Shown piece by piece: positions 20,103-29,320 of a stretch of 64,000 nucleotides of DNA (the stretch's first letter is position 1; every line of letters begins with the position of its first letter). Location: positions 1 to 64,000 of the forward strand of contig JACZJC010000020.1 in assembly GCA_014860745.1 (NCBI GenBank). The letters are read 5' to 3'. Position numbers and translations under genes: made by a program. This DNA comes from Anaerolineales bacterium. GTDB taxonomy: Bacteria; Chloroflexota; Anaerolineae; Anaerolineales; Villigracilaceae. The notes under the pieces are model-generated. The model was not told the origin of the DNA. It saw only the letters and a program-made list of their open reading frames with translations, and made no database searches.

Positions 20103-21007
20103 ATGCGCCCAACTATTTGTGATGTAGCTAAAAAAATTAAACCCCCTCTATAACCACGGTTTCACGTGCCCTGGATGGGTATGACGATGTTGCAGAGCGG
20201 ACTCGTAAACTTGTTATCGAAACTGCACATGAGATGGGGTACGCGCCTAATCGTGTGGCACGCCAATTGCGTCGCCAGCAGACAGACACCATCGGATATA
20301 TCATCCCATCCAATAATACCGGTTTTGCTGATCCATTTTTCTCTGAGTTCATTGCTGGCTTGGGCGATGAAGCATCAGCACATAATTACGACCTGCTGGT
20401 CACAACTGCCCCGCCAGCCAGTCCCAACGAGAAGGCTCAATATGAACGTTGGGTGCAGGGTGGCAAGGTTGACGGGCTGGTGGTGAACCGTGTCCAACTT
20501 GATGATTGGAGATTGCATTACCTTGCAGAACAGGGCGTTCCACACGTATCCCTGGAACGATCTCTGGCGCAAATGGATTTTGTCGGTGTGGAAGTCGATT
20601 CGTATAACGGCTTTCTTGAACTCATGGCTTATCTTGTTAATCAGGGGCATAGTCGTATCGCCTATATTGGCGGTGATCCCAAACTCAAGATCGAGAATGA
20701 CCACCACGCTGGCTATCAGGCTGGACTCAAAGCGGCAAACATCACCCTCGATCCCGCTCTTGTGACCCATGCCGACCTGACCCCGGAAGGTGGTTACCAG
20801 GCGGCGGAACATCTGCTAAAACCTGCCAACCCACCGACTGCAATTGTCTGCGTCAACGATTTGACAGCGATTGGTGCAATGCATGCATCCCACCAATATG
20901 GGCTCAAAGTAGGGCGTAACATCGCAATTCCCGGTTTCGACGGAATTGCAGAACGACAGGTCAAATTTCATCCCAAATTGCTTATTCGCGAATCGACAGG
21001 CGGATGA
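20103..21007 (+). pseudogene. Broken LacI-family transcription regulator
   Basis: The HTH begins in frame at ATG 20103 (MRPTICDVAKK) but a small indel near 20135-20143 shifts the frame, and the rest of the HTH (SITTVSRALDGYDDVAERT) and the periplasmic-binding-protein-like ligand domain (MGYAPNRVARQLRRQQTDTI...) follow in another frame. Near the C-terminus IAIPGFDGIAE jumps to KFHPKLLIRESTGG, missing about 40 residues that normally carry the TTVRQP region. Both lesions should abolish regulation. A shortened product of ~257 residues from ATG 20234 without the HTH is possible. Confidence 0.85.
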
Positions 21008-21063
21008 AATGGATACCATGCCATTCAAATAACCCGCCTAATTTTGTGGTAGGAAATATTTTC

Positions 21064-21309
21064 ATGCAAAACAATCAAAACGGCAAAAAAACTCATGACA
21101 TCACATCTTCCCAAAAAGAAGAGCTTTCTGAAATTCAGGAAGACCTCAATATCAGAGAACAACGACGGCGGATGTTCCCGCGTGTAGCACTCGTAGGATT
21201 GTGTGCAGGCTTGGTGGCTTCATTTTTTCGAATTGCTCTTACCGGAGCAAACGCTTTTCGAAAATGTTTGGCTCTCTGGCATCCGGAGGCATTAGCTTAT
21301 GGATCCTGA
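21064..21309 (+). pseudogene. Truncated ClC-type chloride channel N-terminus
   Basis: 81 codons: a charged start (TSSQKEELSEIQEDLNIREQ) then RRRMFPRVALVGLCAGLVAS and FFRIALTGANAFRKCLALWH, which resembles the cytoplasmic start and first membrane helix of ClC family channels (normally 400-600 residues). It ends at a stop at 21307-21309 and nothing of the channel follows. Like the LacI gene it looks like decay at the island edge. Confidence 0.45.
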
Positions 21310-21353: not shown

Positions 21354-22979
21354 ATGGCCAAAACTGTCATCGCTGCTGCGTTGGGTGAATGCGTCCATGT
21401 CGCGGGCGTATCCAATTTTTTGCGCCTGGCTGAAGCCGCAGGCTGGCGGACGATATTTCTAGGTCCGGCAGTATCCATTGAAAAAGTCCTCGAAGCTGCC
21501 CGCGCCGAAAATGCAGACCTCGTCGGTATCTCGTATCGGCTCACACCCGAAAATGGCGAGCGTTTGCTGGGTCAATTTGCAGAGGAAGCCGCAGAACTTC
21601 ACGAAGCCGGAATCAAATTTGTCTTTGGCGGCACGCCGCCCGTTGCGGAACGTGTGTCGAAGCTTGGTTTCTTTGAAAAAATATTTGATGGGAGCGAATC
21701 GCCTGAACAAGTGCTCGCCTATCTGAAAGGTCAGCCTTCTCAAAACTTAACCGCCTCAGACTTCCCTCAGCTTGTTACTGAACGAATAGCATGGCGCGCC
21801 CCGTATCCGATTCTGCGCCATCATTTCGGCTTGCCCACAATGGAAGCCACAGTTGACGGAATCCAAAAGATCGCTGAAGCCCAATCCCTTGACCTGATCT
21901 CGCTTGGCACAGACCAGGATGCGCAGGAAAACTTCTTCCACCCCGAACGGCAGGATCCACGCCGCAAGGGAGCAGGCGGAGTCCCTGTCCGCACTTTGGA
22001 CGATTACCGTGCCTTGTATGAGGCCAGCCGCCACGGAAACTTCCCCATGCTTCGTGCATACTCTGGAACAGACGATTTCATCCGCTACGCCGAAGTGTTG
22101 ACTGAAGCCATTCACAACGCCTGGTGCGCCATCCCGCTCTTCTGGTTCAATCAAATGGATGGACGCGGCCCCTGGGATTTGGAAGGTTCCATCCGCGAAC
22201 ATCAAAAAGTGATGACATGGTACGGCGAACGGAATATTCCCGTTGAACTCAACGAGCCGCATCATTGGGGCATGCGCGATGCGCCGGATGTGATCTTTGT
22301 GGTTGCGGCATATCTCTCTGCGTATAATGCCAAAAAATATGGCGTGCAGGATTACATCGCGCAGATGATGTTCAACAGTCCGCCTGGCACGAGTGACGCG
22401 ATGGATCTGGCCAAAATGCTGGCAGTGCTTGAGATCATCAGACCGTTGGCGAAAAAAAACTTTCGTATCTGGAAGCAGACTCGCATTGGGTTACTCTCAC
22501 ATCCTCTTGATCTTGACGCGGCACGCGGACATCTCGCGGCCAGTACCTACCTGCAAATAGCGCTCAAACCAGACATCTATCACATCGTTGGGCATACAGA
22601 AGCAGATCATGCGGCAACTGCTGATGATGTCATCGAAGCCAGCAAAATTGTGCGACGTGCCATCAATAATGCGCTTGGTGCGCCCAATATGACCCGTTCG
22701 CCTGAAGTGCAGGATCGCAAGCGGCATCTGATTTCTGAAGCACGAGTCACTCTGGGGGCAATCCAGGATCTTGCAGGGGGAAACGTGCAAGATCCATTGG
22801 CCGACCCGCAGACATTGGCAAAAGCGGTTACTGCCGGGGTGTTGGATGCTCCCCAGTTAATGAGTAACAGCTTCGGGCGGGGAACGATCCGTACTCGAAT
22901 TGTGGAGGGTGCCTGTGAGGCAGTAGATGAATCGGGACGTATCCTTTCTGAGAGGGAACGTCTCACCAAAATAGTGTAG
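21354..22979 (+). CDS. Cobalamin-binding mutase-like protein
   Basis: 541 residues. Residues 1-~130 form a B12-binding domain: GECVHVAGVSNFLRLAEAAG with His15-x-x-Gly18, the base-off cobalamin ligand motif in which the usual Asp is Cys13; VSIEKVLEAARAENADLVGIS; and KFVFGGTPP. The larger C-terminal part (NFPMLRAYSGTDDFIRYAEV, IPLFWFNQMDGRGPWDLEGS, IPVELNEPHHWGMRDAPDV) has the look of the glutamate-mutase epsilon-type barrel, so an adenosylcobalamin-dependent rearrangement or transfer is inferred. The substrate is unknown. A clean AAGGAG site precedes ATG 21354. It is the first gene of an eight-gene operon, 38 bp ahead of the octopine-type dehydrogenase. Confidence 0.8.
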   Translation: MAKTVIAAALGECVHVAGVSNFLRLAEAAGWRTIFLGPAVSIEKVLEAARAENADLVGISYRLTPENGERLLGQFAEEAAELHEAGIKFVFGGTPPVAERVSKLGFFEKIFDGSESPEQVLAYLKGQPSQNLTASDFPQLVTERIAWRAPYPILRHHFGLPTMEATVDGIQKIAEAQSLDLISLGTDQDAQENFFHPERQDPRRKGAGGVPVRTLDDYRALYEASRHGNFPMLRAYSGTDDFIRYAEVLTEAIHNAWCAIPLFWFNQMDGRGPWDLEGSIREHQKVMTWYGERNIPVELNEPHHWGMRDAPDVIFVVAAYLSAYNAKKYGVQDYIAQMMFNSPPGTSDAMDLAKMLAVLEIIRPLAKKNFRIWKQTRIGLLSHPLDLDAARGHLAASTYLQIALKPDIYHIVGHTEADHAATADDVIEASKIVRRAINNALGAPNMTRSPEVQDRKRHLISEARVTLGAIQDLAGGNVQDPLADPQTLAKAVTAGVLDAPQLMSNSFGRGTIRTRIVEGACEAVDESGRILSERERLTKIV

Positions 22980-23017
22980 GGTGAATTTTTATTCGCTTTA
23001 TTTGAAAGGAAATTTTC

Positions 23018-24118
23018 ATGGCAGAAAAATATACAGTTTTGGGAGCGGGGCATGGCGGAAAGGCAATGGCAGCCCATTTGGCTTTAATGGGAGCGGATGT
23101 AGCCCTTTGGAATCGCACATTTGACCATATTTCGATTATCAAAAAGCGGGGCGGGATTGAACTTGAAAGTTTAGAGGGCGGCCCGCGCGGCTTTGGCAAA
23201 GTGAGTCTGGTTACATCTGATATAGCAGAGGCAATTGCACATGCGCAGGTCATTATGGTGGTACTGCCCTCCTCGGCCCATGCGGATGTTGCAAAGGTTG
23301 CCGCGCCTTTTCTTAAGGATGGGCAGATCGTCATCCTGCATCCGGGGCGCACGCTTGGTGCTCTGGAATTCACAAAGGTGATCCGCGATCTTGGCTGTAC
23401 GGCAGATGTGACCGTGGCGGAGGCAGAAACATTTATCTATGCCAGCCGCACGGATGGCCCGGCTCAGGCTCGTATTTTTCGAATTAAAGAGGCTGTCCCC
23501 TTGGCTGCACTGCCTTCCAACCGCAACGAGTTGGTGTTGGACGCCATCCAGCATGCGTACCCACAATTCATTGATGGCGTGGATGTTCTCCACACTGGTT
23601 TGAACAACATGGGCGCGATCTTTCATCCTGCGCTGACCCTGCTCAATGCAGGCTGGATTGAACACACTCACGGCGATTACCAGTTTTATATTGATGGGGT
23701 AACGCCATCTGTGGCGCGTGTTCTGGAAGTGCTCGACCGCGAGCGTGTGACAGTGGCTTCCTCGCTTGGGATTCGCGCCCGTACTTCGCTCGAATGGCTC
23801 AAGTTGGCATACGATACGGAAGGTGTTGACCTGCATGAAGCTGTACAAAACCAACCTGGTTATTATGGAATAAAAGCTCCTCCTACACTGAACCATCGTT
23901 ACCTTTTTGAAGATGTGCCGATGAGTATGGTGCCAATGGCTTCACTTGGTATACGTTATGGAGTCTCTGTGCGCGGCATGGATAGCATTATCCGTCTTGG
24001 AAGCATTATTCACCGTACTGACTACTGGCGGCGCGGTCGTACAGTGGAACGCCTCGGACTTGAACAATGGAGCGTAAGCGAACTGACGCGCTTTGTTAAA
24101 GAGGGGGTGATTGAATAG
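23018..24118 (+). CDS. NAD/NADP octopine/nopaline dehydrogenase family protein
   Basis: 366 residues. The N-terminal Rossmann domain starts TVLGAGHGGKAMAAHLAL (GxGxxG) and includes VIMVVLPSSAHADVA; the C-terminal octopine-dehydrogenase domain contains LNNMGAIFHPALTLLNAG with the conserved Asn/His region. The family reversibly couples amino acids to 2-oxoacids (opines) or oxidises related amines and hydroxyacids using NAD(P)H. Its place next to a B12 protein suggests it reduces or oxidises the substrate or product of the rearrangement. RBS GAAAGGAAA is upstream, and the methyltransferase begins 3 bases after its stop. Confidence 0.88.
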   Translation: MAEKYTVLGAGHGGKAMAAHLALMGADVALWNRTFDHISIIKKRGGIELESLEGGPRGFGKVSLVTSDIAEAIAHAQVIMVVLPSSAHADVAKVAAPFLKDGQIVILHPGRTLGALEFTKVIRDLGCTADVTVAEAETFIYASRTDGPAQARIFRIKEAVPLAALPSNRNELVLDAIQHAYPQFIDGVDVLHTGLNNMGAIFHPALTLLNAGWIEHTHGDYQFYIDGVTPSVARVLEVLDRERVTVASSLGIRARTSLEWLKLAYDTEGVDLHEAVQNQPGYYGIKAPPTLNHRYLFEDVPMSMVPMASLGIRYGVSVRGMDSIIRLGSIIHRTDYWRRGRTVERLGLEQWSVSELTRFVKEGVIE

Positions 24119-24121
24119 GCA

Positions 24122-24811
24122 ATGACCCGTTCAGAAATTAGCCGTGTAGCCCGCCCAAAGGGACAGGCGATTGCGACCTATGACTGTCTCAGCCGCTGGT
24201 ACGACTGTCTGTCTTCCAGCAGTGAATGGCCGCTCGCTGAGCAGGGATTGAATAAATTAAATGTCAACGCAGGCGAAACAGTACTTGAAATTGGTTTTGG
24301 TACTGGGCATGCCTTGCTTGCGCTGGCTAACGCTGTGGGTGAATCAGGCAGGGCGATTGGAATTGATATTTCGCAAGGCATGTTCAAAGTCGCCAGTAAT
24401 AGGATTGCCCGCGCAAATCTGTCTTGTCGCATCACTCTTGGACAGGGAGATGCCGCTGCTTTGTGCTTTCAAGCGAATTATTTTGATGCGATCTTCATTT
24501 CCTTTACGCTGGAATTATTCGACACTCCTGAAATTGCCATTGTTCTCTCGGAGTGTCGGCGTGTGCTGAAAGTTGATGGACGAATTTGTGTTGTGGCAAT
24601 GGCGCGCGACGAGCACGAGAATCTTCCTCAACGCATTTATGAGTGGTTCCACCAATACCTGCCAGCCTATGTGGATTGCCGTCCGATTTATGTTCAAATG
24701 GCACTGATGAAAGCTGGATTTCAAATTCAACAGGTTACCCGCAAACAAATGTGGGGCCTTCCAGTGGAGATTTGTATTGCACAAAATCCAAGAGAGAAAA
24801 ATGATGAATAA
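24122..24811 (+). CDS. Class I SAM-dependent methyltransferase (UbiE/MenG-like)
   Basis: 229 residues with SAM motif I VLEIGFGTGHALLALA, post-I IGIDISQGM, and motif II GDAAALCFQANYFDAIFISFTLELF. This is a methyltransferase_11/UbiE-like fold acting on a small molecule. The substrate is not readable. It overlaps the next gene (ATG 24801) by 11 bp and follows the dehydrogenase by 3 bp, so it belongs to the same operon and may methylate the pathway intermediate. Confidence 0.88.
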   Translation: MTRSEISRVARPKGQAIATYDCLSRWYDCLSSSSEWPLAEQGLNKLNVNAGETVLEIGFGTGHALLALANAVGESGRAIGIDISQGMFKVASNRIARANLSCRITLGQGDAAALCFQANYFDAIFISFTLELFDTPEIAIVLSECRRVLKVDGRICVVAMARDEHENLPQRIYEWFHQYLPAYVDCRPIYVQMALMKAGFQIQQVTRKQMWGLPVEICIAQNPREKNDE

Positions 24812-25328
24812 AGGAATAACAGCCAATCAACCTAAGGGGTTTCTGCGCTTCCTGTTTCGGTTGCCACTCTGGCTTTATCGAGTCAAATTGGGCTGGCTCC
24901 TGGACAAGCGTTTTCTCATGCTCACACACATCGGACGTAAAAGCGGACAGCCTCGTGAGGTAGTGCTTGAGGTAGTGCATGACGATTCGGAGACAGGCGT
25001 ATATTTTGTTGCGGCTGGATGGCGCGGAAAGGCAGATTGGTTTAAGAACATCCAATCAAATCCTGAGGTGCAAGTCATGGTTGGTTCGCGGACATTTAAA
25101 GCTAAAGCTGCTGTTGTGCAATTGGCCGAGGCTGCTTCCATTTTTTATCTCTATGCCCGCCGTCATCCATTTGCGTTTCGCGAACTCTCGCGCCTCATGA
25201 TGGGTGAAATGCTTCAGCCTGTTCAACGTGATTGTTTTTTGTTCGCGAACTCGGTGCCGCTGGTGAAATTGATTCCCTGCCTGTCTCTAAGAGAAGATAT
25301 TAAAAACGAGGGGAGAAATAATGGTTAA
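24801..25328 (+). CDS. Deazaflavin (F420)-dependent nitroreductase-family protein
   Basis: 175 residues from ATG 24801 (an in-frame ATG 24 bases upstream lies inside the methyltransferase and lacks an RBS). LTHIGRKSGQPREVVLEVV, VYFVAAGWRGKADWFKNI and NPEVQVMVGSRTFKAKA match the DDN/deazaflavin-dependent nitroreductase family, which use reduced F420 for two-electron reductions. The role in this operon is unknown, but it adds a second reductive step. It overlaps both neighbours, which indicates translational coupling. Confidence 0.85.
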   Translation: MMNKGITANQPKGFLRFLFRLPLWLYRVKLGWLLDKRFLMLTHIGRKSGQPREVVLEVVHDDSETGVYFVAAGWRGKADWFKNIQSNPEVQVMVGSRTFKAKAAVVQLAEAASIFYLYARRHPFAFRELSRLMMGEMLQPVQRDCFLFANSVPLVKLIPCLSLREDIKNEGRNNG

Positions 25329-25890
25329 TCTCTGGCTGGTCCGTCATGGTCAAACAGATTGGAATCTTACAGGCCGATGGCAGGGACAGGCTTCTGAAGC
25401 TCCCGGATTAAATGAAACGGGGCGTAAGCAGGCGTCAGTTGCCTCCGAAAAAATGAAAGGAATGGAAATCTCTGCCATTTACAGCAGTGACCTGCTTCGC
25501 GCAAAACAAACTGCAGAAGCGATTGCTGTCCCTTTGGAATTACCTGTTATTTTGGAACCACGTCTGCGCGAAATTAATCTTGGGGTTTGGGAAGGCATGC
25601 CCTCGGAAGATATCGAAATGCAATATCCGCAGGAACTGGCAGATCGAGCGCGAGATCCATTCCACACACACGCGCCAAATGGAGAATCACCATATGAAGT
25701 GGCAGAACGTGTGCTAAAGGCTGTAAACGAGATTGCCGATAGGCATCGTGATGAATCTGTTTTGATCGTCGCGCACGGAATCTCACTGGCGGTCATCATT
25801 TGTCACGCTGAAGGGTTCCCTGTAGAGGATGTGTACCAACATATTCCAGATAACGCAAAACCATATCGCGTGGATTGGGATGACCTGTAA
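25321..25890 (+). CDS. Histidine phosphatase (phosphoglycerate-mutase-like)
   Basis: 189 residues of the cofactor-independent-of-metal histidine phosphatase superfamily: LVRHGQTDWNLTGRWQGQ contains the RHG with the catalytic His, SSDLLRAKQTAEAIA the second Arg, LREINLGVWEGMPSEDI the Glu loop and VAHGISLAVI the second His. This form covers CobC alpha-ribazole phosphatases, sugar-phosphate phosphatases and GpmB-like enzymes. Given the B12 gene in the operon, alpha-ribazole-phosphate is one guess; a pathway phosphate ester is another. It overlaps the previous gene by 8 bp. Confidence 0.88.
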   Translation: MVNLWLVRHGQTDWNLTGRWQGQASEAPGLNETGRKQASVASEKMKGMEISAIYSSDLLRAKQTAEAIAVPLELPVILEPRLREINLGVWEGMPSEDIEMQYPQELADRARDPFHTHAPNGESPYEVAERVLKAVNEIADRHRDESVLIVAHGISLAVIICHAEGFPVEDVYQHIPDNAKPYRVDWDDL

Positions 25891-25910: not shown

Positions 25911-27263
25911 ATGCAAATATTTAACTTCCTAAAACGATTAATGCACCCGCTGAACGCCAGTGAAAGGATGGATGTCACACAGGATGTTCGTCAATCTGCC
26001 GCCTCCAGTTTTGATTTTTTTCTATTGGTGGTATTGTCATGCAGCATCGCCACACTGGGACTAATCACCGATTCACCTGCCGTCATCATTGGCGCCATGC
26101 TGGTTGCGCCACTCATGTCTCCCATTATTGGCATTGGCTTGTCGTCCATTACCGGGGATTCGTTTTTAGCCCGTAATTCAACCATTGCATTATTTCGGGG
26201 TGCAGTCCTGGCGATTTTGCTGTCCAGCTTAATGACCCTGATCAATGTTAGATTGCCCTTTGTAGTTTTGCAGGAACTTCCCGGCGAAGTGTTGGCCCGT
26301 ACTCATCCATCTCCGATCGATCTGGTTGTTGCACTCGCTGGTGGTTTGGCCGCAGCGTACGCGCTTACGCGCCCCAATATCTCTGCGGCATTACCAGGTG
26401 TTGCGATTGCCACCGCACTCATGCCGCCACTTTGCACAGTGGGTATTGGCATTGCTCTCTTGAATTGGGATGTTGCGGGTGGGGCGCTTCTGCTCTTTAT
26501 TACCAATGCCATTACGATTGCCTTTGCCGCGGCATTGGTTTTCTTTCTGCGTGGGTTTTCGCCGGATACGCATCTTGTCAATCGACAACTTCCTCGTACC
26601 CTGGTTATTTCAGCTTTAATAACACTCACATTGCTTGTACCTTTAACTTATTACAGTGTTCAGTTTTTTCAACAGGCCAATCAGAATCGACTTATCAACG
26701 AGGTGGTTAATGAAGAGGTATCTCGTGTCGATGCAGAATTAGTTGAGATGGATTTATCTCGTACCGGTAACAACCTCGATATGGTCATCACAATAAGTAC
26801 AAGCAAAGCCCTGCGTTATGAACAGGTGATCACCTTGCAAAAAGCCATTGTGGATGGGCTTCAACTCCCGATTTCACTCAAGGTGAATCAGATTTTTACT
26901 GAACGGCTGGATCCACTTATCCCGCCGACACCAACTTTGACCAATACACTTGGTCCCAGCCCAACAGCGACATTAACTGCCACCCCTTTACCGCCTACCA
27001 TCACACCCACTTTTGCACCGACGGCTACGGCCATGCCGGGGTTGGCCCAGAGTATTGCTGCTGGATTGCCGCGTTTGCAGTTATATCAGTCTCCACAGGG
27101 GCCGGTCATTGGACAGATCCGCTCGGGACAGATATTGACAATGCTGTATGGCAGAGAAGAGATGGGAGGATTGATCTGGGTTGAAGTCGTGGATGTAGAG
27201 GGTAGAGTCGGTTGGATACCAGAAATTTATTTACAGGCGGTTACAGCCACCCCGTCGGAATAA
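25911..27263 (+). CDS. DUF389 membrane protein fused to an external SH3-like domain
   Basis: 450 residues. The first ~250 hold the DUF389 (TIGR00341-type) core with several membrane helices (SSFDFFLLVVLSCSIATLGL, PAVIIGAMLVAPLMSPIIGIG, ALPGVAIATALMPPLCTVGIG). After a ~90-residue soluble segment comes a Thr/Pro linker (~340-375; LTNTLGPSPTATLTATPLPP) and a C-terminal bacterial-SH3-like fold (LQLYQSPQGPVIGQIRSG, GWIPEIYLQAV). DUF389 is of unknown function, and the added extracytoplasmic SH3 suggests wall or peptide binding. It follows the phosphatase by 20 bp in the same operon. Confidence 0.85.
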   Translation: MQIFNFLKRLMHPLNASERMDVTQDVRQSAASSFDFFLLVVLSCSIATLGLITDSPAVIIGAMLVAPLMSPIIGIGLSSITGDSFLARNSTIALFRGAVLAILLSSLMTLINVRLPFVVLQELPGEVLARTHPSPIDLVVALAGGLAAAYALTRPNISAALPGVAIATALMPPLCTVGIGIALLNWDVAGGALLLFITNAITIAFAAALVFFLRGFSPDTHLVNRQLPRTLVISALITLTLLVPLTYYSVQFFQQANQNRLINEVVNEEVSRVDAELVEMDLSRTGNNLDMVITISTSKALRYEQVITLQKAIVDGLQLPISLKVNQIFTERLDPLIPPTPTLTNTLGPSPTATLTATPLPPTITPTFAPTATAMPGLAQSIAAGLPRLQLYQSPQGPVIGQIRSGQILTMLYGREEMGGLIWVEVVDVEGRVGWIPEIYLQAVTATPSE

Positions 27264-27280
27264 TATGAAAGGAAATATAT

Positions 27281-28765
27281 ATGTGTGGAATTGCAGGAAT
27301 CTATAAAGCACAATCGTCGCAAGATGTTGAACGGATGTTGGAAAAGATCGGTCACCGCGGACCGGATGGTCAGGGAGTAAAAAACCTGCCCGCAGGTACA
27401 TTGGGGCATGCCCGTTTGGCTATCATTGATGTGGAGGGCGGTTACCAGCCGATGGGATTTGACGATACCTGGATCGTTTTCAATGGCGAAATTTATAACT
27501 ATCGCGAATTGGCTCGTGAACACTTAAAAGATATACCCCTGAAAACGCATAGCGACACTGAAGTTATTGTTCAGCTCTATCGCAAATTTGGCCCGCCTGC
27601 CGTGAAATTACTCGATGGCATGTTTGCCTTTGCTCTCATACAGGGTGATGAGCTTTTCATGGCGCGCGACCCACTGGGAATTAAGCCGCTATATTGCGGT
27701 GAGCGGGATGGAAAGTTTTATTTTGCATCCGAGATCAAGGCTCTGGCGCTCGTGACTGATGAAATCCGTGAGTTTCCTGCGGGACACTGGTATCACTCAA
27801 AAACCGGCTGGCATGCTTTTTACGAAGTTGATCCCGAGTTACTGGAAATCAAAGAAGAGGGGCAAGCCATCGAAGCGATTCGTTCTACGCTGAAAGATGC
27901 AGTGCAAAAGCGCCTGCTCGCCGATGTGCCGGTGGGCATCAGCCTAAGCGGAGGTTTGGATAGCAGCATTGTTGCTTTACTTGCAAATGCAGGTACTGAT
28001 CATTTGCATTCGTTTGCCGTTGGCATGGATGGGAGTGAAGATCTACAGGCCGCACGCAAAATGGCGGATGTGCTGGGAACTCGCCACCATGAGCGGATAT
28101 ATACAGAACAGGAAATGCTGGCCGCGCTCCCGAAAGTGAACTATCACCTCGAATCCTTCGACCCCGCGCTTGTTCGTTCTGCCATTCCAAATTTTTTCCT
28201 GGCTGACATGGCTTCGAAATACGTCAAGGTCATTCTCACTGGCGAAGGCGCAGATGAGATCTATGCAGGCTACGATTACCTGCGTTCCTACGACAATCCT
28301 GAAATGCTGCAAAAGGAGATGGTGGGAATCACATCTGCTTTGCACAATACCAATCTCCAGCGTGCTGACCGTATCGCAATGGCATTTGGATTGGAAGCCC
28401 GCGTCCCATTTCTGGATGTGAAATCGGTTGCGCTGGGATTAGGGCTGCCTGCTCAATGGAAAACTCACCGCGAAAAGTCTGCCAAGTTTCTCCTGCGAAA
28501 ATCTTTTAGTGGTGATCTGCCAGATGAGATCACCAACCGTCCCAAACAGAAATTTTCAAAAGGAGCTGGCTCATCGGATGTGATTACCAAAAAGGTGGAT
28601 CAGGAAATTGCCGATCAGGAGTTCCACTCCGAACGTGCCCGACTGCTCTATCAATGGAACTACCGCCTGCCCAATAAAGAAGCTTTATACTATTACCGAA
28701 TTTTGCACGAGTTTTATCAAGATCAATGGATTTTTCCGACGATGGGACAGAGCCGCAGTTTGTAA
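27281..28765 (+). CDS. asnB: Asparagine synthase (glutamine-hydrolysing)
   Basis: 494 residues. An N-terminal class II glutamine amidotransferase domain starts MCGIAGIYK, with Cys2 as nucleophile after Met removal, HRGPDGQG, and WIVFNGEIYNYRELA. The C-terminal synthetase domain has the ATP PP-loop SLSGGLDSSIVALL, LTGEGADEIYAGY and R(I)AMAFGLEARVPFLD. It makes asparagine from aspartate, glutamine and ATP; in clusters such enzymes can also amidate or lactamise pathway products. Length fits the shorter bacterial/archaeal forms. RBS GAAAGGAAA precedes ATG 27281, 17 bp after the DUF389 gene. Confidence 0.92.
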   Translation: MCGIAGIYKAQSSQDVERMLEKIGHRGPDGQGVKNLPAGTLGHARLAIIDVEGGYQPMGFDDTWIVFNGEIYNYRELAREHLKDIPLKTHSDTEVIVQLYRKFGPPAVKLLDGMFAFALIQGDELFMARDPLGIKPLYCGERDGKFYFASEIKALALVTDEIREFPAGHWYHSKTGWHAFYEVDPELLEIKEEGQAIEAIRSTLKDAVQKRLLADVPVGISLSGGLDSSIVALLANAGTDHLHSFAVGMDGSEDLQAARKMADVLGTRHHERIYTEQEMLAALPKVNYHLESFDPALVRSAIPNFFLADMASKYVKVILTGEGADEIYAGYDYLRSYDNPEMLQKEMVGITSALHNTNLQRADRIAMAFGLEARVPFLDVKSVALGLGLPAQWKTHREKSAKFLLRKSFSGDLPDEITNRPKQKFSKGAGSSDVITKKVDQEIADQEFHSERARLLYQWNYRLPNKEALYYYRILHEFYQDQWIFPTMGQSRSL

Positions 28766-28780
28766 AAGGAGGAAGATATT

Positions 28781-29320
28781 ATGGAAGCCTTTGATTGGTA
28801 CTCCTGGGTTATCCTGCCTTTTATTGTATTTTTTGCACGTGTAGCGGATGTAACCCTTGGCACGCTTCGAATTATCTTTACCTCTCGCGGCAGGCGTAAT
28901 ATTGCTCCCCTACTTGGCTTTGTGGAAGTGTTTATTTGGATCGTAATTGTTGGGCAGATCGTAAAGAATGCACATAGCCTGACCGCTTACATTGGCTATG
29001 CCGCTGGCTTCGCAACAGGGACCTTTGTCGGAATGTTGATCGAGGAACGCATGGCAATGGGAACCCTGGTTTTGCGTATTATCCTCGCGAAAGGCGCAGA
29101 CGAACTTACCAACGCTTTACGAGGTGCCGGATTTGGCGTTACCAGTGTCAACGGTGAAGGCGGACAAGGACCAGTGAAATTACTCTACACAGTTGTTCAA
29201 CGCAAGAAACTGAGCACAGTTACCAACATAATCCATGAAATTTGTCCGGGCGCGTTTTTCTCTGTAGAGGAAATTCGATCCAGTGAGATGGGTATCTTTC
29301 CACGCTCAGGTCGCAGGTAG
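28781..29320 (+). CDS. UPF0316 (DUF5698/DUF2179) membrane protein
   Basis: 179 residues. Three N-terminal membrane helices (WVILPFIVFFARVADVTLGT, then LLGFVEVFIWIVIVGQIV and the AYIGYAAGFATGTFVGMLIE segment) are followed by a small soluble domain (GFGVTSVNGEGGQGPVKLLY, TNIIHEICPGAFFSVEEIRS). This is the UPF0316 pattern, of unknown function. It is the last gene of the operon, 15 bp after asnB with RBS AAAGGAGGA. Confidence 0.88.
   Translation: MEAFDWYSWVILPFIVFFARVADVTLGTLRIIFTSRGRRNIAPLLGFVEVFIWIVIVGQIVKNAHSLTAYIGYAAGFATGTFVGMLIEERMAMGTLVLRIILAKGADELTNALRGAGFGVTSVNGEGGQGPVKLLYTVVQRKKLSTVTNIIHEICPGAFFSVEEIRSSEMGIFPRSGRR

Follow-up and report, generated by a model that had tools for sequence, protein, structure and literature searches.

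In the glutamate mutase GlmS/GlmE from Clostridium cochlearium (1cb7 and 6h9e), glutamate is held in GlmE by Arg66, Arg149, Arg100, Glu171 and Tyr177 (PMC10947579), and a glutamate residue is reported to interact with the adenosyl group in this enzyme as well as in the acyl-CoA mutase MCM, with Glu338 taking the same role in ornithine 4,5-aminomutase (OAM; PMC4413051). The DxHxxG motif has been called the one sequence motif that methyltransferases and isomerases share (PMC3727330), and in octopine dehydrogenase His212, Arg324 and a His–Asp relay have been described (PMC2924402). The gene pair reported here is built from known enzyme classes; among the open-licence papers listed, none dealt with such a pair according to its title or the start of its abstract.

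The window (the whole stretch of 64 000 nucleotides that was analysed) belongs to a 4.3-Mb genome, the nearest named relatives of which are Anaerolineales metagenome assemblies. Five open reading frames lie on the plus strand, spaced by 38 bp and 3 bp and then overlapping. Core gene 1 (21354–22979) encodes a 541-residue protein with a B12-binding domain (Pfam, E = 2e-12) and a GlmE-like barrel, and core gene 2 (23018–24118) encodes an opine-type (octopine/CENDH-like) NAD(P)-dependent dehydrogenase of 366 residues (PF02317, Octopine_DH, E = 6e-45). They are followed by three accessory genes for a UbiE-like SAM methyltransferase (MT; 24122–24811; Pfam E = 6e-22), a deazaflavin-dependent reductase-like protein (DDN; about 24801–25328; F420H2_quin_red E = 1e-12, TIGR00026 above its cut-off) and a histidine phosphatase of branch 1 (HP; 25321–25890; His_Phos_1 E = 8e-59). 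The same strand continues with an accessory DUF389 membrane protein (25911–27263), an asparagine synthase B (AsnB; 27281–28765) with the N-terminus MCGIAG and thus an intact Cys2, and a DUF5698/DUF2179 protein (28781–29320), assigned by Pfam; the last two are recurrent partners of the pair. The first-pass annotation had described five tightly packed genes of these families, in agreement with the coordinates, the gaps and Pfam. Two narrower assignments were rejected: MT as the corrinoid protein-associated methyltransferase CpaM (NF043040, 72.9 bits against a cut-off of 180, with UbiE-type models scoring as high) and AsnB as N-acetylglutaminylglutamine amidotransferase (270 bits against a cut-off of 570, compared with 557 against 499 for the NCBIfam AsnB model). 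No riboswitch was found in the window, where the sole Rfam match at the gathering threshold is a tRNA. Just upstream of the pair (20234–21309), a LacI-type gene is 78% identical to that of the related locus L018 and is followed by a 101-residue fragment matching the N-terminus of a ClC chloride channel (73% over 86 residues); the channel (556 residues) is intact at the matching place in L018.

The core gene 1 product is, according to its predicted structure, a GlmE-like barrel fused behind a B12-binding domain. The Pfam B12-binding match covers residues 4–99, the domain extends over about residues 1–128 and the barrel over about 133–525, and no Pfam model matches the C-terminal ∼400 residues. 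The AF2 model, built with 40 homologues, has a mean pLDDT of 84.7 and a pTM of 0.80, and its top solved fold is GlmE (Z = 30.9, 363 residues, r.m.s.d. 2.9, 17% identity), followed by lysine 5,6-aminomutase (Z = 28.1) and ornithine 4,5-aminomutase (Z = 24.7), with the acyl-CoA mutases (MCM and ICM) showing a related fold at Z of about 15–20. A profile comparison with hhalign, in which GlmE was represented by seven Chloroflexota sequences, aligned the family with GlmE over 341 columns (probability 94.5%, E = 7.7e-8). The GlmE-like second domain of the first-pass annotation, for which modelling of the barrel had been suggested, is thereby borne out. Unlike GlmS/GlmE, the protein is a single fused chain with the B12 domain first, and neither it nor its host genome contains a match to PF06368 (GlmE) at E ≤ 0.001. 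The host genome encodes a cobalamin adenosyltransferase.

Residues 13–18 read CVHVAG, and the motif CxHxxG, in which cysteine replaces the usual aspartate of DxHxxG while histidine and glycine are kept, is present in 81 of 81 sequences, in agreement with the Cys13 substitution of the first-pass annotation; His15 is invariant. Glu416, which aligns with GlmE Glu330, is likewise invariant (81/81) and is shared with glutamate mutase, as is the barrel fold. The residues that hold glutamate in GlmE have no such counterparts: Arg66, Arg149, Arg100, Glu171 and Tyr177 map to His157, Tyr236, Gln191, Pro261 and Gln267, of which the first four are invariant (81/81) and the last is Gln in 80 sequences and Arg in one. 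This mapping comes from hhalign, for which the profile was of low diversity (Neff 1.7). Since the arginine claw (Arg66, Arg100 and Arg149) is absent at the aligned positions, as is Glu171, and DxHxxG has lost its aspartate, the enzyme does not look like a glutamate mutase. Invariant Arg155 and Arg234 lie two residues ahead of the positions aligned with Arg66 and Arg149, which may reflect a shifted site of carboxylate binding or an alignment register that is off by two. PLP aminomutases need a lysine that makes the aldimine with PLP; no invariant lysine was found in 40 aligned rows, and the best candidate, Lys354, sits in the barrel and is Arg in four of the 81 sequences, which speaks against a PLP aminomutase.

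The core gene 2 product is, by family and catalytic residues, a true opine-type dehydrogenase. PF02317 matches with 153 bits, NAD domain models match too, and homology to CENDH (1bg6) extends over residues 3–351 (E = 3.4e-75). His203, Arg294 and Asp299 align with residues 212, 324 and 329 of octopine dehydrogenase (3c7a), where we take 329 to be the number of the relay aspartate, and the same His, Arg and Asp are found in CENDH. Among 79 aligned rows, His203 is His in 77 (two gaps), Arg294 is Arg in 74 (four gaps and one His) and at position 299 there are 68 rows with Asp and six with Glu (five gaps). The octopine-type assignment of the first-pass annotation therefore holds; what distinguishes this dehydrogenase from CENDH and octopine dehydrogenase is its constant pairing with a B12 protein.

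Exact peptide patterns, scanned against contigs, identified 166 relatives, of which 80 (loci L018–L097) are listed and analysed here; all carry Chloroflexi or Anaerolineae labels or genus names of that group. The dehydrogenase adjoins the mutase in 78 of the 80 loci, directly downstream in 76 and upstream in two (L057 and L059), a count that includes the dehydrogenase of L034 and the contig-cut dehydrogenases of L078 and L097. The two exceptions are L028, with none nearby, and L083, where the contig ends 466 bp past the mutase. The gap between the two genes, measurable at 72 loci, is a 4-bp overlap in 13 and at most 20 bp in 38 (overlaps included). At the level of genomes, the mutase occurs in 16 of 61 relatives, and these 16 are also the ones with a close dehydrogenase; in G047 the pair is separated by 1.9 kb, and G059 has just a 33% homologue. 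Across 301 genomes of the phylum the mutase profile matches 22, namely 15 of the window type (one cut by a contig end), one fused to MutL and six with the B12 domain only, and dehydrogenases of at least 60% identity occur in exactly the 15 window-type genomes, while 37 further genomes contain homologues of 27–39% only. The relatedness of the genomes makes p-values for this co-occurrence optimistic, and the correlation of mutase and dehydrogenase distances (r = 0.45 over 72 loci) is uninformative without a species tree. Inside the genus the pair is patchy (10 of 37 genomes). No homologue from outside Chloroflexota is among the matches listed (80 of 166), the whole-genome searches having covered the phylum only, and no match was found on plasmids. 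The family is present in the records of three named strains, Bellilinea caldifistulae GOMI-1, Anaerolinea thermolimosa IMO-1 and Ornatilinea apprima P3M-1. One relative, G009, has two copies of the pair on separate contigs (C5 and C56), with mutases 91% and 73% identical to that of the window; both copies are accompanied on their contigs by AsnB-like and DUF5698 genes.

It is thus the two-gene pair, and not the five-gene set, that is a real conserved unit: the adjacency of mutase and octopine-type dehydrogenase that the first-pass annotation wished to see in other genomes is confirmed, whereas its five-gene pathway is not. Among the 80 listed loci, an MT homologue lies near the pair in four (L019, L020, L033 and L054), a DDN homologue in three (L018–L020) and an HP homologue just downstream in two (L018 and L020); other HP genes are upstream in L055, about 10 kb away in L031 and a weak 64-bit match in L064. 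MT, DDN and HP are local additions to the pair, and the DUF389 gene is near three of the 80.

AsnB, DUF5698 and cation transporters are better partners than these three. Homologues of AsnB (E ≤ 1e-80) were found in 11 of the 61 relatives, all 11 of which have the pair, and in nine of these the AsnB gene shares a contig with the pair and lies no more than about 5 kb from it; the only match in G048 and one of the two in G009 span the synthetase half alone. In the phylum sample they occur in six of 15 genomes with the pair and three of 286 without it. DUF5698 proteins of at least 54% identity are found in 12 of 16 relatives with the pair and none of 45 without, although distant forms are more widespread (29 of 61 relatives in all). 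ATP-grasp ligase homologues lie near seven of the 80 listed pairs (three confirmed by Pfam). A mutual exclusion of the two ligase types was considered and dropped: 17 loci have AsnB only, six ATP-grasp only, one both and 56 neither, which is too few, and the AsnB cluster counted mixes normal and glutaminase-dead forms.

The glutaminase-dead forms, AsnB relatives without Cys2, lie near six pairs (L030, 12881–14224; L055, 10397–11737; L063, 8817–10000; L065, 13779–15122; L070, 483–1640; L231, 197–1525). Cys2 is replaced by Ser in three, Thr in one and Ala in one, and L070 has no alignable N-terminus. The five with an N-terminus also lack the segment around FNGEIYN, presumably the AsnB glutamine site, while all six keep the ATP motif SGGxDSS. 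Beta-lactam synthetases, the substrate of which is N2-(2-carboxyethyl)arginine, are related to asparagine synthetase (PMC6097109), and the forms near the six pairs resemble them and CarA in being AsnB relatives with SGGxDSS and without Cys2; however, they score higher to AsnB itself (171 bits to 1ct9, compared with 84 to 1jgt and 54 to 1q15). The window does not contain such a form, its own AsnB having Cys2.

A distant branch of the mutase, which keeps CxHxxG, is fused to MutL (270 bits to PF13941, MutL/GlmL). A search of 20 genomes from the order of G240 gave eight matches, six of which closely resemble the MutL-fused protein of L122, and the fused open reading frames encode about 1220–1380 residues comprising B12 domain, barrel and MutL (L229 is cut by a contig end). 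A dehydrogenase of the octopine type, from another subfamily, lies directly upstream at three of the four fused loci examined out of six (L122, L227 and L229), and none was found in the 18 kb seen at L228. RpiR-type regulators precede all four (by Pfam at L122 and L228, by similarity at L227 and L229), and dipeptide-type solute-binding proteins (SBP_bac_5) occur at L122 and L228 together with ABC genes recognized by eye. The same order of bacteria also includes two window-type pairs, L230 and L231. In contrast to this branch, MutL is absent beside the window pair, and MutL encoded elsewhere was rejected as evidence of partnership: 57 of 61 relatives have a match above the cut-off, comprising all 16 that carry the pair and 41 of the 45 that lack it. 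The host genome has a MutL-like ATPase (L136, 7476–9233, contig C64) although it has no GlmE match.

On balance, we favour the reading that the pair forms a two-gene module in which an opine dehydrogenase and an adenosylcobalamin-dependent carbon-skeleton mutase catalyse successive steps on a single amino-acid-derived compound. The core gene 1 product would be an isomerase of the GlmE/aminomutase fold class, with His15 as the lower cobalt ligand and Glu416 helping to break the Co–C bond, and the core gene 2 product would use NAD(P)H to join an amino acid and a 2-oxo acid or would split such a compound. A radical isomerization of an amino acid or opine would thus be coupled to reductive N-alkylation or its reverse, and in some lineages an asparagine-synthetase-type or ATP-grasp ligase may act nearby. 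Support for the module comes from the fold and profile matches to GlmE, the invariant Glu416 and His15, the retained dehydrogenase residues, the adjacency and shared occurrence of the two genes, the cobalamin adenosyltransferase of the host genome and the existence of the MutL-fused branch; from these we infer cobalamin binding, isomerase activity and the order, direction and product of the steps. A B12-dependent rearrangement joined to a redox step, as the first-pass annotation had imagined it, is likely, while its substrate, direction and product stay at the level of inference. The loss of the GlmE substrate residues, the replacement of Asp by Cys, the loci without a dehydrogenase (L228 and L028) and a MutL that is not beside the window pair and is present regardless of it count against the module as proposed. 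The ligase partners favour biosynthesis, which is probably the direction in the window-type branch, and the importers beside two fused loci favour catabolism in the fused branch.

A catabolic module, in which the dehydrogenase splits an imported opine or oxidizes the product of the mutase, would suit the RpiR-type regulators of the fused branch and the binding proteins and ABC genes at L122 and L228, and it has a precedent in OAM followed by 2,4-diaminopentanoate dehydrogenase (PMC4413051), where the mutase likewise precedes a dehydrogenase, of a different family. We nevertheless consider it unlikely, as none of the genes seen next to the window pair is for uptake and the AsnB, glutaminase-dead AsnB and ATP-grasp neighbours suit synthesis better. 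By far less probable is a role of the 541-residue protein as a B12-based sensor or methyl carrier, linked to these genes for some other reason. B12 domains are also found in sensors and methyltransferases, and the N-terminal domain matches, among others, a MerR-family protein and methionine synthase, but the barrel matches isomerases over about 310–366 residues with the catalytic glutamate kept.

The neighbourhood also suggests, by analogy, that the module might supply a compatible solute against salt stress or ion stress, namely an amino acid that is rearranged, N-carboxyalkylated and, in some cases, amidated. Genes for ion transport, of families identified with Pfam (Na/Ca exchanger, NhaA, CPA antiporters, CitMHS and ClC), occur at 29 of the 80 listed loci and at none of 60 random 20-kb stretches from three pair-bearing genomes, and a held-out test (models from L018–L039, loci L040–L097) gave nine of 58 against none of 60. 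Homologues of c-di-AMP receptors lie within 10 kb of the pair at nine of the 80 loci (L035, L036, L039, L043, L046, L047, L072, L076 and L090) and in none of the 60 controls. There is a precedent in lysine 2,3-aminomutase and an acetyltransferase (AblA/AblB), which yield N-epsilon-acetyl-beta-lysine (PMC9128505). However, the transport models were built from the pair loci themselves, which favours them, the loci are related, the controls come from three genomes and 51 of the 80 loci have no such transporter. Moreover, we know of no osmolyte that matches the predicted product, and a compatible solute is a doubtful reading. Very remote indeed is the reading that the mutase acts on the opine itself, which would give Chloroflexota a B12-dependent way to a beta-amino acid or lactam. 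The dehydrogenase would make an N-(1-carboxyethyl) amino acid, and the mutase would turn CH3-CH(NHR)-COOH into RNH-CH2-CH2-COOH, with the branched-to-linear topology of glutamate mutase except that it would be nitrogen that migrates, and without PLP. The glutaminase-dead AsnB of some lineages would then close or amidate the beta-amino acid in the manner of beta-lactam synthetase and N2-(2-carboxyethyl)arginine.

The consecutive action of mutase and dehydrogenase on one amino-acid-derived compound thus remains the preferred reading. To our knowledge, few adenosylcobalamin-dependent carbon-skeleton mutase reactions are known, and the family described here combines a GlmE-like barrel with a changed active site, an invariant cysteine in place of the aspartate of other B12 isomerases and a constant redox partner. 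Because of this partner, the mutase reaction should be reachable by a coupled NAD(P)H assay, just as ornithine aminomutase has been assayed via its dehydrogenase (PMC4413051). The pair points to an undescribed amino-acid pathway in some Chloroflexota, and should its product prove to be a stress solute or a lactam, this would represent a new class of bacterial metabolite.
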